Origin: Limosilactobacillus reuteri
Lineage (GTDB): Bacteria; Bacillota; Bacilli; Lactobacillales; Lactobacillaceae
Length of the DNA stretch: 64,000 bases
Assembly: GCF_020784725.1 (NCBI RefSeq)
Contig: NZ_JAJGTZ010000026.1
Coordinates: forward strand, 62,001 to 126,000
Direction of reading: 5' to 3'
The notes under the pieces were generated by a model that did not search any database, was not told where the DNA came from, and worked only from the letters and a program-made list of their open reading frames with translations. The position numbers and the translations under genes are program-made. Positions 35,963-52,291 of the stretch are shown piece after piece; the stretch's first letter is position 1, and every line of letters starts with the position of its first letter.

Positions 35963-37333
35963 TTGAAACTAAACATTCCAGTACATAAAAATGAAGAATA
36001 TCCAGCGAAGGTAGTGGATTTATCTTATGAAGGCAATGGGGTCGTTAAGATTGATGATTTTCCCGTCTTTGTTCCTAATGCCCTTCCTGGTGAAGAGATT
36101 ACGGTAAAGATCACCAAGGTAACCAGCCACTTTGCTTGGGGACGGGTAATGGACTGGCAGACGAAGAGTCCAGACCGCGTTGATGTTAAGGATAAAAAGT
36201 ACATTCAAACCGGTATCGCCCCCCTTGGTCATTTGAAATATGAGGCCCAGTTGAAATTCAAGCAACACCAAATCCAAGAATTATTGGCCAAAGCACACTT
36301 AGATGAGATTGAAGTTTTACCAACGATGGGGATGGAAAAGCCTTATCATTACCGTAATAAGGCCCAAGTACCAGTAAAAATGGTCCGCGGTCAATTAGAA
36401 ACCGGTTTTTATAAGCGGGGGAGCCACAATTTAGTACCGATTGAAGATTTCTATATCCAGGATCCAGAAATCGATAAGGCAATTGTAGTTGTCCGTGACT
36501 TATTACGGCAATACCACATTACACCATATGATGAACAAACTGGTAAGGGCGTGATTCGCACAGTAATGGTTCGACGGGGATATTACAGCCATGAAATGAT
36601 GGTAGTCTTAGTCACGAATACGAAGCGGTTACCAATGGAAAAGCAAATCGTCGACGGGATCGTTGCCGGAGTTCCAGAAGTAAAAAGTATTGTGCAAAAC
36701 ATCAATGATAAGCGAACGAACCGCTTGCTTGGTGATAAGAATAAAACATTATGGGGTACCAATGAAATTCATGATCAGCTCCTCGGAATTGATTTTGCAA
36801 TCTCACCACTGTCCTTCTACCAGGTTAATCCGCAACAGACTGAACGCCTTTACCAAACGGCCATTGATAATGCTGGCTTGGACGGCAATCAAACGGTCAT
36901 CGATGCCTATTGTGGAATTGGCACGATTTCCCTTGCAGTAGCTAAACATGCTAAGCAAGTTTATGGAGTGGAAATTGTCCCAGCCGCGATTGAAGACGCC
37001 AAACATAATGCTAAACGGAATGGTATTAAGAACGCCAAATTTGTTGTTGGTAAGGCCGAAGAACAATTTGCTAAGTGGCAAGCAGCAGGCCTCAAACCAG
37101 ATGTTGTTATTGTTGATCCACCACGGAAGGGCTTGGCTGAATCATTGATTGAAGCTACTGGTAAGATGGGACCAAAGAAAGTGATTTATGTTTCCTGTAA
37201 TCCAGCCACTTTAGTCCGTGATATTCAACGTTTCGCTGAACAGGGTTACCATGTGACGAAGCCAATTCAGCCAGTAGACCAGTTCCCACAGACGACGCAT
37301 GTTGAGAGTGTGACGGTGCTGGAACGAGCATAG
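35963..37333 (+). CDS. rlmCD: 23S rRNA (uracil-5-)-methyltransferase
   Basis: 456-aa TrmA/RumA family SAM methyltransferase; in Bacillus RlmCD makes both m5U747 and m5U1939. TTG start at 35963 behind TGGAGGA. N-terminal TRAM domain (YPAKVVDLSYEGNGVVK), SAM motif DAYCGIGTISLAVA, IVDPPRKG, catalytic-Cys motif VSCNPATLVRD. The frame is open upstream but the family begins here. Confidence 0.94.
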   Translation: MKLNIPVHKNEEYPAKVVDLSYEGNGVVKIDDFPVFVPNALPGEEITVKITKVTSHFAWGRVMDWQTKSPDRVDVKDKKYIQTGIAPLGHLKYEAQLKFKQHQIQELLAKAHLDEIEVLPTMGMEKPYHYRNKAQVPVKMVRGQLETGFYKRGSHNLVPIEDFYIQDPEIDKAIVVVRDLLRQYHITPYDEQTGKGVIRTVMVRRGYYSHEMMVVLVTNTKRLPMEKQIVDGIVAGVPEVKSIVQNINDKRTNRLLGDKNKTLWGTNEIHDQLLGIDFAISPLSFYQVNPQQTERLYQTAIDNAGLDGNQTVIDAYCGIGTISLAVAKHAKQVYGVEIVPAAIEDAKHNAKRNGIKNAKFVVGKAEEQFAKWQAAGLKPDVVIVDPPRKGLAESLIEATGKMGPKKVIYVSCNPATLVRDIQRFAEQGYHVTKPIQPVDQFPQTTHVESVTVLERA

Positions 37334-38030
37334 CAAAGTTCGATTACTTATGAATGACCCATACGATAACGCTCGAAGAATGAGGAAGATAGTGACGAAT
37401 GATTGGCTAGTGGCGAACCGTCGAGAGTATCACAATGTTGTCGAGGAGCTAGGCAACGAAGAGAATACTAGTGATACTCTATGCGATAGCGTTTCAATTA
37501 GATTTTTATTTTTTCTGATATAAGTGTTTAATAAAAAACAATGAACCGCTTGTTGACTATGACTTCATTGCTGCCTAGTTCAAAATGCTATATCGAGAGA
37601 AAACCAAAATTGGAACGGTTCTGCATTATGAGATTTGAATTGTGTGTTACAGGAATTATCAAGTGTCCAGTGAAAATATGAAATATTTTTTGAGAACCAT
37701 GAATGAATTAATTACACTCTTGAGCGTCGGGTTTATACCTTCTTACTACTACAAATTACTAATAACTATATCTTTGGTGTTTTTGAATAACTGAAGGTTT
37801 CTCTAATTGGAAATACTTTAAGTAATTGATACCGTAAGATACGCAGAAGGAAATATAATGTGATGTGAATTTGGAGATGAGAAGATAAATGAATATGTTT
37901 ATTAAATTTCAAAATTTTGTATAAAGTATAATTTTAAAAATTTGGATCATAAATACAAGTGATCTTTGGGATGATGATCTAATGAAATATATTACTTTCA
38001 AAGTTGGATGTTGTATAAGGATGGTATTTT
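37334..38030. other. gene-free AT-rich stretch, unassigned
   Basis: About 700 bases without a credible gene on either strand. One 10-bp inverted repeat is seen, AGAGTATCAC (37424-37433) and GTGATACTCT (37471-37480), 37 bases apart, followed by a T-rich segment that could end rlmCD transcription. The remainder to 38030 is AT-rich and has no similarity that I recognise. It marks the left border of the accessory region. Confidence 0.5.
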
Positions 38031-39752
38031 GTGAAAATTAATGAATTATCTATTTCTAATTTTCGAGGAATTTCTAAAACAAGAAAATTAATCTTTACTA
38101 AAAATTCTAAACCTAGATCAATTTTGATATATGGAGATAATGGTACCGGGAAGTCAAGCTTTTTAGATGCAATAGAATTTATTGCTCAAGGAACTATACA
38201 AAATAGAAGAACAACGAGTTCCGGAGACTGGATATACAGTTCAAATTCAAAAGTTAATTATCAATCTGCAACTAAAGTATGGTGTAAATTTGATAATGGA
38301 TTATGTGTTGAAAAGGACTATGTATTTGATGATAATAAATTAAACATAGTCACTTTCAAAAATGAAGAAGAATTCAATAAAAATATTTCTATCCCAAGCT
38401 TTTGTCATGCCCCATTAGTATTAAGAAGAAGAGATATTATAAAGTTTTGGGATTTAGATTCCATTGAAAGAATGAAAATTTTTATACCATTTGCAAGTCC
38501 TAAAAACGATGTTGGCTTTATCCCAATTACGGAGCAAGAAAAAATAGATAGAATTAATAAGAAGCGTTTGAAATTTAAAGAAAAGCGAAATGATCTTTTG
38601 CAAAAAATATGCAAAGAATATAATTGGGATTATGAAGAAGAACAATTAAAAGACAAAAATAGATTATTTTTGAAAATTAAGAAGAGGGAACATGTAAGAA
38701 AACTTAATAATTTAAGAAAGACTAAGTCTAGAAAATATCGAGAATTAAGAAGATTATATCGATATTATGATGTTATATCGGGCTGTAACAAATCTATTAA
38801 ACATATAAGAAAAAAATATAAGGCTCTTCAAGAAAAGAAAAACGGGAAATTCCATGACTTAAAGAAAATTATGGAAAAAATTTCTCCAGAAATTACAAAA
38901 TGGTTTAAAAATATTTCACCATCAAGTGATTGTGTTGATAGAATTATCGTTTCTGTTGCAAAACAAACAGATATTTCTATAAATTTTGATGTTATTCTTA
39001 CGAATGGTTTAGAAGCGAATCCAGAGAAATATTTTTCAGAAGCTAATCGTGATTTATTAGCGTTATTATTATATTTTGAATTTATATATGCAAAGAGTTT
39101 TGAAGGACAGAATAAAGTGTTAATATTGGATGATGTATTTCAAAGTATAGATTCCACCATTAGGCTTAATCTTGTTCGGTATCTTTTAAAACGATTTAAT
39201 GAATGGCAATTTATATTAACAACCCATGATAAATTATGGAAAGAGCAGTTGATAAATCTGTTTAGAAATCACAATAGCACATTGGTTCAATATGAAATTA
39301 ATCGCTGGAGCCTTTTAGATGGACCACAGTTGGCTATAGGTATTAATAATTATGATGAAAAATTAAAAGAAGTGATTTGTAATGGAGATGCTGTTGATAT
39401 TAGTGCACGCGCAGGCTATCTATTAGAATATTTATGTGAAAATCTGAGTGTAATTATACATTCGGGTGTTCAAAGAAAAAAAGACGATAGATATACTATC
39501 GGGGATTTATGGCCTGGAATATTAAAAATAATGAAAAGAACCCCAGCTAAAGAAACATTTGAAACATTAAATGATTTTATTATGAATCGTAATTTAATAG
39601 GCGCACATTATAATGAATGGGCTGTAAGTGCGTCAAAAACTGAATCAATAGAATTTGGAGAGCTAGTACTTAGATCTTATTATAGTGTATTTTACAAAGA
39701 TAAAGGCAACTGGATTAATGATAAAGATGAGATAACCGGAGAAGAGCTATAG
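38031..39752 (+). CDS. lone SMC/RecF-like ATPase, candidate defence protein
   Basis: 573-aa protein, GTG start behind AAGGATGG. N-terminal ABC-type half site: FRGI motif at residues 11-14 and Walker A GDNGTGKSS at 35-43. A Lys/Arg-rich predicted coiled coil runs from about 165 to 290. Then a signature-like SEANRDLLALLL near 336, Walker B VLILDDVF at 363-370, D-loop and H-loop TTHD at 397-400. The C-terminal 120 residues hold RNLIGAH (R520, H526), an R-x5-H like that of HEPN RNases. AT-rich coding, no partner gene, flanked by non-conserved DNA. Relation to OLD, RloC or other single-gene phage defence ATPases is inference. Confidence 0.8.
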   Translation: MKINELSISNFRGISKTRKLIFTKNSKPRSILIYGDNGTGKSSFLDAIEFIAQGTIQNRRTTSSGDWIYSSNSKVNYQSATKVWCKFDNGLCVEKDYVFDDNKLNIVTFKNEEEFNKNISIPSFCHAPLVLRRRDIIKFWDLDSIERMKIFIPFASPKNDVGFIPITEQEKIDRINKKRLKFKEKRNDLLQKICKEYNWDYEEEQLKDKNRLFLKIKKREHVRKLNNLRKTKSRKYRELRRLYRYYDVISGCNKSIKHIRKKYKALQEKKNGKFHDLKKIMEKISPEITKWFKNISPSSDCVDRIIVSVAKQTDISINFDVILTNGLEANPEKYFSEANRDLLALLLYFEFIYAKSFEGQNKVLILDDVFQSIDSTIRLNLVRYLLKRFNEWQFILTTHDKLWKEQLINLFRNHNSTLVQYEINRWSLLDGPQLAIGINNYDEKLKEVICNGDAVDISARAGYLLEYLCENLSVIIHSGVQRKKDDRYTIGDLWPGILKIMKRTPAKETFETLNDFIMNRNLIGAHYNEWAVSASKTESIEFGELVLRSYYSVFYKDKGNWINDKDEITGEEL

Positions 39753-39802
39753 CAAGCTATGCTTTCAATAAGTGTAGTTAGTTCTTAAACATAAATTTAT
39801 GT

Positions 39803-39843
39803 AGCATCATCTAGCGATATGTTTAAAGGTGATGCTTTTCTTT
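39803..39843 (+). terminator. terminator after the ATPase gene
   Basis: AGCATCATC and GGTGATGCT (one G-U pair) around a 16-nt loop, followed by TTTCTTT. Confidence 0.75.
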
Positions 39844-45076: not shown

Positions 45077-45120
45077 AAGAGTGCTATACAAAAAGTTAAT
45101 TTGTACACACTCTTTTTATT
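45077..45120. terminator. bidirectional terminator between convergent genes
   Basis: AAGAGTG (45077-45083) with CACTCTT (45108-45114), inner TACAAA/TTTGTA; T-run on the plus side and A-run in the stop region serving the minus-strand gene. Confidence 0.7.
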
Positions 45121-45973
45121 ATCCGAGAAACTTATCATATTCATCATCAGTTAAATTATATTTTTCAATGACCTTTTGTTTAACGATCGCTGGTTTAATA
45201 TTGAGTTCATAAAGAGAGTCAATTAGCTTTTTTATGTCTTCCCTTTTTGCTTTTGCCATCCCTTCTTCTCGTGCTTCCCTTTTAGCGTCCATTAAATTTA
45301 ATTCGTACTTCATAAAGCCATTTCTCCTTTCTGGATCTTGTTTGACTTTATCAATTTCATCTTGAATTTGAGCAATAAATCTACCCTTATTGTCGCCTTG
45401 ATTACTCATTAAAGCAAGGAAACTCTTAATTGGTTCATCACTTTTATCAAATTTTTTAGCAAGGGCATTAAAAATAACGACAGTCCGATTATCACCAAAT
45501 TTCAGGTTATGGTCTCTAGTGCAAGTAAGATTAAATTCATATCGTGCCCATCCCTGCTTAAAATAATCAAAATTGCAGAACATAATAACATAAGTAGGGT
45601 AGTCTTTGAGTACTGAATAATCGTCTCCGGGTCTTAATAGCCCATGATCAACCTGTTCTTGATAGTAACGCAACCGTGCTGGTAAGTTATTTTGGTTATT
45701 AACTTGCATCTCAATGACAATGATATTATTTTTATCATCACGGACATAGACATCAAAGCGAACGCGATGGGCACCAACGATACTAATATCTTTTTGGGTG
45801 TCTAACTGGATAATCTCTTTTGCTTTAAGGTTTGGCAGAGCCCTATTAATTAACTCTAAGCATATTTCTTTATTTTGCATTACTAGTCCAAACATTGGAT
45901 CACTAGTAATTGTCATCTTTTGCCACTTGTCATAGATTAAGGCAATTTGTTCTTCGCGTGATAGATTATTCAT
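45119..45973 (-). CDS. Rpn/PD-(D/E)XK transposase-like nuclease
   Basis: 284-aa member of the Rpn (recombination-promoting nuclease, formerly transposase_31/PDDEXK_2) family. Contains DPMFGLVMQNKEICLELINR, the nuclease core with VRFDVYVRDD and VIEMQ, and the tail repeat-like region DAKREAREEGMAKAKRE. AAGGAG site. These proteins are common in mobile or variable regions; Rpn proteins in E. coli are DNases tied to phage defence and recombination. Confidence 0.88.
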   Translation of the reverse strand: MNNLSREEQIALIYDKWQKMTITSDPMFGLVMQNKEICLELINRALPNLKAKEIIQLDTQKDISIVGAHRVRFDVYVRDDKNNIIVIEMQVNNQNNLPARLRYYQEQVDHGLLRPGDDYSVLKDYPTYVIMFCNFDYFKQGWARYEFNLTCTRDHNLKFGDNRTVVIFNALAKKFDKSDEPIKSFLALMSNQGDNKGRFIAQIQDEIDKVKQDPERRNGFMKYELNLMDAKREAREEGMAKAKREDIKKLIDSLYELNIKPAIVKQKVIEKYNLTDDEYDKFLG

Positions 45974-47626: not shown

Positions 47627-48181
47627 ATGACAATATTTGTAATTCTATTAATCTATAAATTCATTAAAGGAACATTTGAATATGAAAAGGTAACGCGGTT
47701 TGAGTTGGTAATTCTTCCTATTTATTCTGCGATTATGATGGTCTTGAGCTTAGAAAACGTTAGATCTTTAACAGCATTTGGCCTTACAATTATTCTTTTA
47801 ATCCTCGGAGGTTCAATTGGTTTTCTTCAAGCTAGTCAGACGCAAATCAAGGATACCAACAAACTAGATTCCCATCAGCGACCGATTTTGAAGGTTAAGA
47901 GAAATTGGCCGTATCTTGTGGGCTGGCTTGTTTCATTTGCAATTGGAATCAGCGTTGAAGTATTTTATGGGGCCCATATTAATGCGGAAGAAATTTCCAG
48001 CGAATTATTTGAAGAAGTTCTTAAAGATCTATCTGTAATTGCCTTTTTCGGAGGGCATAATTCTTGGTTTGTGTGGGTCTTGAATGTCGCAACTAGTTTT
48101 ACTTATGGTGCTTGTTTAATGATTCGTTATCCTAAGATTCGTGAAGCAGTGCGACGACGAAAAAGTAAAGATAGGTACTAA
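47627..48181 (+). CDS. four-helix membrane protein, paralogue of 51722
   Basis: 184-aa membrane protein of unknown function with about four hydrophobic segments and a basic C-terminus. Shares with the 189-aa gene at 51722 the order FIKGTF, IPIY, a central Trp-Tyr/Leu segment, a late Glu-rich loop and (I)R(H)YPxIxEA near the end. Weak ribosome site. Function unknown. Confidence 0.75.
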   Translation: MTIFVILLIYKFIKGTFEYEKVTRFELVILPIYSAIMMVLSLENVRSLTAFGLTIILLILGGSIGFLQASQTQIKDTNKLDSHQRPILKVKRNWPYLVGWLVSFAIGISVEVFYGAHINAEEISSELFEEVLKDLSVIAFFGGHNSWFVWVLNVATSFTYGACLMIRYPKIREAVRRRKSKDRY

Positions 48182-51721: not shown

Positions 51722-52291
51722 ATGATTCTCTTAATAATTTTTTGCTTATTGATTTTATATAATTTCATTAAAGGAACATTTCAATTAGAGACTGTGACTA
51801 AGACTAGTTTTATTATTATTCCGATTTATGCATTAGTCATGACCATTATTTCGATCTTTACGGAGCAACAGGAATGGCATTTGCTAGTTATGATTGTTCT
51901 AATTTTAATTGGGATTATGCTTGGCTGGTTTCAAACATTTAGTGTTCGCATTGTAAAAACAGCGAAAAAAGATAAATACGGTAACCATATATTTAAATAT
52001 CGGCGTGGTTGGGCCTATTTATATGGATTTGTCCTTGTATTTATGGTTGAAATTGCAACGGATCACCTCTTAGGATTAAAGATGACTTTTAAAGGGCTAT
52101 TATTTGAATTATTAGATGAGGTTTTACGAGAACGTTTTAAATTTTTGCCAGATAATGGTTGGGTAATTTGGCTATTACTTACGGTCACAACTGCTACCTA
52201 TACTTTAATCCTTATTCGTCACTATCCATGTATTAAAGAGGCATTAGTTTGGAAAAGGTATACTAAGAAAAAACGGTCAGGAAAAAACTAG
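51722..52291 (+). CDS. four-helix membrane protein, paralogue of 47627
   Basis: 189-aa membrane protein of unknown function, similar over its full length to the 184-aa gene at 47627 (FIKGTFQLETVTK versus FIKGTFEYEKVTR; IIPIYALVM versus ILPIYSAIM; IRHYPCIKEA versus IRYPKIREA). AAGGAGG site, stronger than in the paralogue. Divergent from the LytTR gene, so it may belong to its regulon. Confidence 0.78.
   Translation: MILLIIFCLLILYNFIKGTFQLETVTKTSFIIIPIYALVMTIISIFTEQQEWHLLVMIVLILIGIMLGWFQTFSVRIVKTAKKDKYGNHIFKYRRGWAYLYGFVLVFMVEIATDHLLGLKMTFKGLLFELLDEVLRERFKFLPDNGWVIWLLLTVTTATYTLILIRHYPCIKEALVWKRYTKKKRSGKN

Follow-up and report, generated by a model that had tools for sequence, protein, structure and literature searches.

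A short ABC ATPase with a HEPN-like C-terminal domain at a variable site of a Limosilactobacillus reuteri genome: a candidate one-gene phage defence

Results

Gene and protein organization

The 64,000-nucleotide stretch of Limosilactobacillus reuteri DNA analysed here (the window) carries on its forward strand an uninterrupted ORF with a GTG start (38031-39752), which ORF prediction, Pfam searches and alignment describe as a short ABC-ATPase gene of 573 amino acids, devoid of a zinc hook and ending in a HEPN-like C-terminus. The gene lies in a variable cargo site delimited by locus comparison (37334-39826), between a core 23S rRNA methyltransferase gene that we take to be rlmD-like (35969-37333, forward strand) and a TetR-type gene. 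Its GC content of 28.1% is the lowest among the 51 window ORFs of at least 150 amino acids (mean 38.5, s.d. 3.3), in line with the AT richness noted in a preliminary description of this DNA.

The same description had placed three ABC motifs, and these were recovered at the same residues: Walker A GDNGTGKSS (aa 35-43; 38133-38159), Walker B VLILDDVF (aa 363-370; 39117-39140), read from the sequence and the 12-member alignment, and the H-loop TTHD (aa 397-400; 39219-39230). An ABC signature-like FSEANRD lies at aa 335-341 (39033-39053). The alignment comprises the window protein and 11 relatives, ten of which are only 27-35% identical to it; G35, N37, G38, G40, K41, S42 and S43 of Walker A, S336, E337 and D341 of the signature and H399 of the H-loop are invariant in all 12 sequences. 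Every Pfam match of the protein concerns the ATPase, namely SMC_N (1.1e-12), AAA_21 (1e-10), AAA_23 (6.7e-9) and AAA_13 (4.3e-8, 32.8 bits, under the cut-off of 36), and we regard its assignment as an ABC ATPase as practically certain. Beyond ATPase-head models, scans with Pfam, NCBIfam and PADLOC matched no specific named system, in agreement with the preliminary description, which recognised none; NCBIfam and PHROGs gave nothing specific to the protein, the matches being weak or below cut-off and mostly in the ATPase part.

The middle of the protein (aa about 170-295; 38538-38915) is a helical, presumably coiled-coil region. The coiled coil proposed earlier finds only indirect support here, the region being weakly matched by chains of SMC proteins and of designed coiled coils, and a CxxC zinc hook is absent from residues 141-310 in the 12 short members. 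The C-terminal HEPN-like domain (aa 435-573; 39333-39749) was delimited by alignment and matches no Pfam family at E 10. It contains E466, the proposed active-site acid (39426-39428), and a proposed catalytic motif R520-N521-x4-H526-x-N528 (39588-39614), which includes the HEPN-like RNLIGAH (residues 520-526) already pointed out in the preliminary description. E466, R520, N521, H526, N528 and A531 are invariant in the 12 short members, which also share a glycine at 462, a position held by arginine in RloC-type relatives. The (near-)invariance of the ABC and C-terminal key residues across 12 such divergent sequences indicates that these motifs are more than chance. At least one zinc-ribbon-like cysteine pair is found at the far C-terminus of ten of the 12 proteins, the exceptions being the window protein and its closest homologue.

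Distribution of the short family

A scan of genome contigs with the window protein as lone query found no relative. Relatives were collected with a three-row alignment (the window protein, a homologue from genome G144 and a Streptomyces plasmid protein) against a collection of one genome per species, from which the best 80 of at least 93 matches were considered. The G144 homologue, from another genus of the same bacterial family, is 61% identical over residues 17-573 and is the closest among the matches listed. Its frame (L002:1498-3218) stops 19 codons after the ATG, the remainder being open in another frame, so this copy may be dead or misassembled. The Streptomyces plasmid protein is 28% identical to the window protein over 98%. 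The three-row scan yielded at least nine further near-full-length short relatives, from Prevotellaceae (two), Salinimicrobium, Alistipes, Anabaena, Streptomyces and metagenome-assembled genomes (MAGs) of an actinomycete, a Planctomycetota and a Lokiarchaeota. The short members hence span the window's bacterial family, Bacteroidota, Actinomycetota, Cyanobacteriota, Planctomycetota and Lokiarchaeota, and the 12 form a single clade (SH-aLRT 99) in a tree of the ATPase-head columns.

Despite this breadth the gene is rare. The family is present in one of 50 genomes of the window's genus, far from the fixed, constant presence that would have spoken against the original proposal, and full-length matches were found in 2/397 genomes of the bacterial family and 1/398 of the phylum. 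In two other phyla (345 and 244 genomes) the only full-length match was in the starting genome; partial matches, some of them to longer cousins, occurred in 12 and three further genomes, respectively. There was no match among 50,697 phage records, the IMG/VR scans gave 24 loci with every match confined to residues 1-230, and 25 further weak matches in genomes of the bacterial family (E 7e-6 to 1e-3) were confined to residues 1-132.

The gene had been described as standing alone, and the neighbourhoods agree: among ORFs of at least 60 amino acids within 6 kb of the family gene in 12 loci (less where a contig ends), no partner is conserved at E 1e-6. Loci match one another in two instances only: the window and G144 have the gat-dagK-rlmD genes in common, along with an antisense ORF there, and two small antisense ORFs that lie within the family gene match each other.

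Two arginine arrangements in the C-terminal domain

Cousins of about 800 amino acids with a CPxC zinc hook in mid-protein have the same C-terminal domain; a few others, near 485 amino acids, are hookless. Before scoring, we dropped matches below 60 bits and seven duplicate loci and then, of 76 sequences, three identical ones and three shorter than 450 amino acids. Five of the resulting 70 were left unscored: L099 and L095 (truncated), L100 and L146 (unaligned in this region) and L094, which has neither arginine and is not alignable at 462.

Exactly one of two alternative arginines, at 462 or at 520, was found in 65/65 scored C-termini, a count that does not amount to 65 independent events because many Bacteroidota rows are near-copies and two changes suffice on the tree. 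Gly462 with Arg520 occurs in 16 proteins, the 12 short members and four long ones, and Arg462 without Arg520 in the other 49; L101, irregularly aligned around 520, has a lysine there. The four long proteins (L059, L029, L137 and L138) combine a zinc hook with the Gly462/Arg520 arrangement of the short family and are thus intermediate in architecture between both types. Position 466 is E in 63/65 and D in 2/65, and H526 is kept throughout. The Arg462 cousins mostly follow the pattern N-x2-R-x3-E...S-H (N459 in 37 of 49, N521 in 48, serine before the histidine in 42). A lysine or arginine at 470, giving the Ex3[KR] form of many HEPN families, is found in 43/49 of them versus 0/16 of the Arg520 proteins.

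A repeated origin of the arginine exchange was considered when a first tree (FastTree) scattered the two types, and was abandoned since a better tree needs only two changes; a single clade for the arginine arrangement is not rejected by the AU test (p 0.495). Six proteins of about 484-517 amino acids (L141, L142, L144, L145, L154 and L155), hookless where checked, have an R-x3-E...N-x2-S-H-like C-terminus, which was scored as above for all except L145, read by eye.

Assignment of the C-terminal domain

The HEPN superfamily is defined by an Rx4-6H motif, with a second conserved acid in many families, and the available text of PMC3710099 places the C-termini of RloC and PrrC in it. The short members have the Rx4-6H motif, including the polar residue after the arginine, as R520-N521-x4-H526 in 12/12; E466 is an invariant acid in them, though without a lysine or arginine four residues on. 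Profile searches, proposed in the preliminary description as a check of its HEPN claim, did not bear it out: 29 C-termini gave no significant HEPN family in Pfam, the best being DUF4145 (0.0074 in two) and AbiU2 (0.063 in one), and at E 5 the 42 families obtained in all were mostly chance-like. L141 was left out of the Pfam scan of the cousins. Profile searches of the PDB with C-terminal alignments returned nothing significant (best E 0.36 and 0.28). By hhalign, the short C-termini against those of RloC were negative (0.4%), and a mixed profile matched the latter weakly (5%, P 0.007 at the E466 helix). Given these negative profile comparisons, the link of the domain to RloC and HEPN is drawn from the shared motif order and the bridging cousins. 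On these motifs we consider, with good confidence, that the domain is of HEPN type, and it is fairly likely that the protein is an RNase.

The site downstream of rlmD

An rlmD orthologue (68-100% identity) is found in 49 of the 50 genus genomes, the remaining one (G1394, 78% complete) having only a 39% paralogue. Comparison with 19 loci of the same genus bears out the non-conserved borders mentioned in the preliminary description: in 12 of them the DNA ceases to resemble the window at the rlmD stop or shortly ahead of it, and in seven some 30-160 bp past it. The far flank (from 39826) is matched by only one of the 19 (L163); two others (L161 and L172) are not informative, owing to a rearranged locus or a contig end.

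Defence or candidate-defence genes follow rlmD in eight of the 19 loci, a descriptive count made without a control region. They are a type I methyltransferase (L157), a candidate PDC-S50 with a Schlafen-type domain (L159), type III methyltransferases (L160 and L175), a type IV DUF3427 helicase (L164), Cas3 (L166), Mrr (L174) and a TOTE helicase (L170). These scans covered 14 different proteins picked as likely cargo, 13 from ten of the same-genus loci and one from G144. Three had no defence match, namely a NUDIX protein (L158), a mandelate racemase-type protein (L165) and the FMN oxidoreductase of G144 (L176), and three had no Pfam match at all (402 aa in L157, 390 aa in L166 and 386 aa in L170). 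By eye, the remaining loci apparently hold transporters, resolvases or prophage. The DNA after rlmD (37334-39826 in the window; L157-L175) is a hypervariable cargo site in the genus, its contents varying between species, and a practical place to search for more defence genes there. In G144, of another genus, the homologue also lies directly after rlmD.

Comparison with named systems

We assembled eight RloC-like proteins, three from the window's bacterial family identified by an AAA_13 scan and five plasmid-borne ones assigned by similarity to one of these. Of the RloC-like proteins, L180 is encoded in a genome of that bacterial family, and L185 on a Loigolactobacillus plasmid, immediately before a type I hsdR gene. 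All eight have an invariant N-x2-R-x3-E...N-x2-S-H, and most long cousins of the short family show the same RloC-like pattern. Like RloC, the window protein joins in one chain a Rad50/SMC-type ABC head, with Walker A, signature, Walker B and H-loop, to a C-terminal domain in which an E, an N and an H are conserved. In RloC, the available text of PMC2610378 gives the catalytic triad as Arg-x3-Glu-x36-52-His (R692, E696 and H737 in G. kaustophilus, required for tRNA cleavage as judged by mutation) and the zinc hook as the feature setting RloC apart from PrrC. The window protein, in contrast, has G462-x3-E466-x59-H526, the arginine of the short family preceding N521 instead (R-x5-H). It is also shorter, with 573 residues, whereas the five RloC-like proteins that were measured have 717-796, and the short members lack the CxxC hook that appears as CPxC in the cousins of about 800 amino acids. 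As the triad, the zinc hook and the AAA_13 score (below cut-off) all depart from RloC, we do not file the window protein under that name.

PrrC likewise combines an ABC ATPase with a C-terminal RNase, putative in the window protein, but its triad is Arg320-Glu324-His356, the window protein having no R-x3-E arginine, and PrrC is coupled with a type I restriction enzyme, whereas no restriction gene is found among the ORFs adjoining the window gene. APECO1_4465 and ERFG_01251, compared by description only, resemble it as ABC ATPases with a C-terminal HEPN domain, putative in the window protein; that of ERFG_01251 is 'classical' rather than of the PrrC/RloC type in the available text of PMC3710099, and the short family may coincide with ERFG_01251-like proteins. 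The same text describes ABC-HEPN fusions as a class, known since 2013, and the short family would be a variant within it.

In PADLOC the closest models belong to defence ATPases: those of LmuB, AbiLi and MAD3 match all 12 short members (best 5e-22, LmuB). The likeness to LmuB (Lamassu), AbiLi, MAD3, PtuA, AriA and GajA concerns the SMC/OLD-type ATPase head; in the 25 of 69 PADLOC matches listed, the best stretch never extends beyond residue 408. Several of these ATPases act in concert with partner proteins or with a TOPRIM domain. The partner genes LmuA (Lamassu), PtuB (Septu) and AriB (PARIS) lie beside that of the ATPase, and GajA of Gabija, like OLD, has a C-terminal TOPRIM domain. By contrast, the 12 family loci have no conserved neighbour in a comparison of their ORFs with one another, and no TOPRIM model figures among the 16 Pfam families obtained at E 10 for the window protein. 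A search of open-licence papers revealed no named system recognisable as the short family; one of them reports, in its available text, 31 newly validated defence systems, four with HEPN and seven with P-loop NTPase domains (PMC13092281), and these may include it.

Discussion

A rare gene joining an ATPase to a HEPN-like domain, at a site where relatives hold anti-phage genes, is probably a suicide-type phage defence. We consider a role of the window gene in defence likely, and we favour, with somewhat less assurance, a stand-alone abortive-infection protein acting by suicide or dormancy, RloC-like in design and not RloC by definition. The candidate single-gene defence of the preliminary description thus keeps its RloC-like design, its single-gene and accessory character and a defence-rich site, and loses the expected profile matches to HEPN and to RloC. 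In the mechanism that we propose, residues of about 1-160 and 320-430 would form a Rad50/RloC-type ABC head dimerising on ATP, which may sense a signal made by the phage, for example aberrant DNA ends or the blocking of a host nuclease. Before infection, the head would keep the two HEPN-like C-termini separated or out of register; the signal would alter the ATP state and let them pair, whereupon E466, R520, N521 and H526 could form a metal-independent RNase site. This site would cut RNA, most likely tRNA, a substrate that we put forward only tentatively, and would thereby stop translation and phage growth.

The negative HEPN searches also speak for a rival reading in which the C-terminus would be a helical domain for nucleic-acid or tRNA binding or for dimerisation, appended to a defence ATPase whose effector acts in trans or which itself blocks phage DNA. 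The zinc-ribbon-like cysteine pair(s) of ten of the 12 members would suit nucleic-acid binding, and some motif-less HEPN domains probably bind RNA only, according to the available text of PMC3710099. However, the invariance of the polar residues E466, R520, N521, H526 and N528 is what an active site would show, and the gene has no conserved partner, so we hold this reading to be unlikely.

An altogether different origin, as a horizontally acquired RecF/RecN/SbcC-type protein of DNA repair or recombination without a defence role, is suggested by the match of the head to the SMC_N and RecF models, the latter far under its cut-off (40 versus 172 bits). It appears improbable for a gene present in one of 50 genus genomes, at a site with defence genes in eight of 19 relatives, whose product has an additional C-terminal domain and a distribution scattered over phyla. 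Highly improbable, finally, is a selfish toxin module or a passenger in decay, with no function at present: the broken frame near the N-terminus of the G144 copy, and the lack in this copy and the window copy of cysteine pairs kept in the other ten, point that way, but the window copy has an intact frame of 573 codons and retains all invariant residues despite deep divergence, and no antitoxin-like partner is conserved.

If the abortive-infection reading is right, the gene would provide a small one-gene system, easily moved and tested, and a natural comparison for the control of HEPN RNases by an ABC head without a zinc hook. It would also offer a testable account relating the RloC/PrrC catalytic triad to the canonical HEPN motif. 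Indeed, it is possible, and we suggest it with reserve, that the short proteins form a distinct, cross-domain, single-gene ABC-HEPN defence family in which the RloC-type R-x3-E arginine has been replaced by the classical-HEPN R-N-x4-H arginine, on another presumed helix. The family would then connect the anticodon-nuclease site of RloC to the canonical HEPN site and reveal the way in which one is converted into the other.

Elsewhere in the window, a 284-amino-acid protein encoded on the reverse strand (45119-45973) looks, in our judgement, like an Rpn-type recombination-promoting nuclease, and two small membrane-type proteins (47627-48181 and 51722-52291) are alike by eye.
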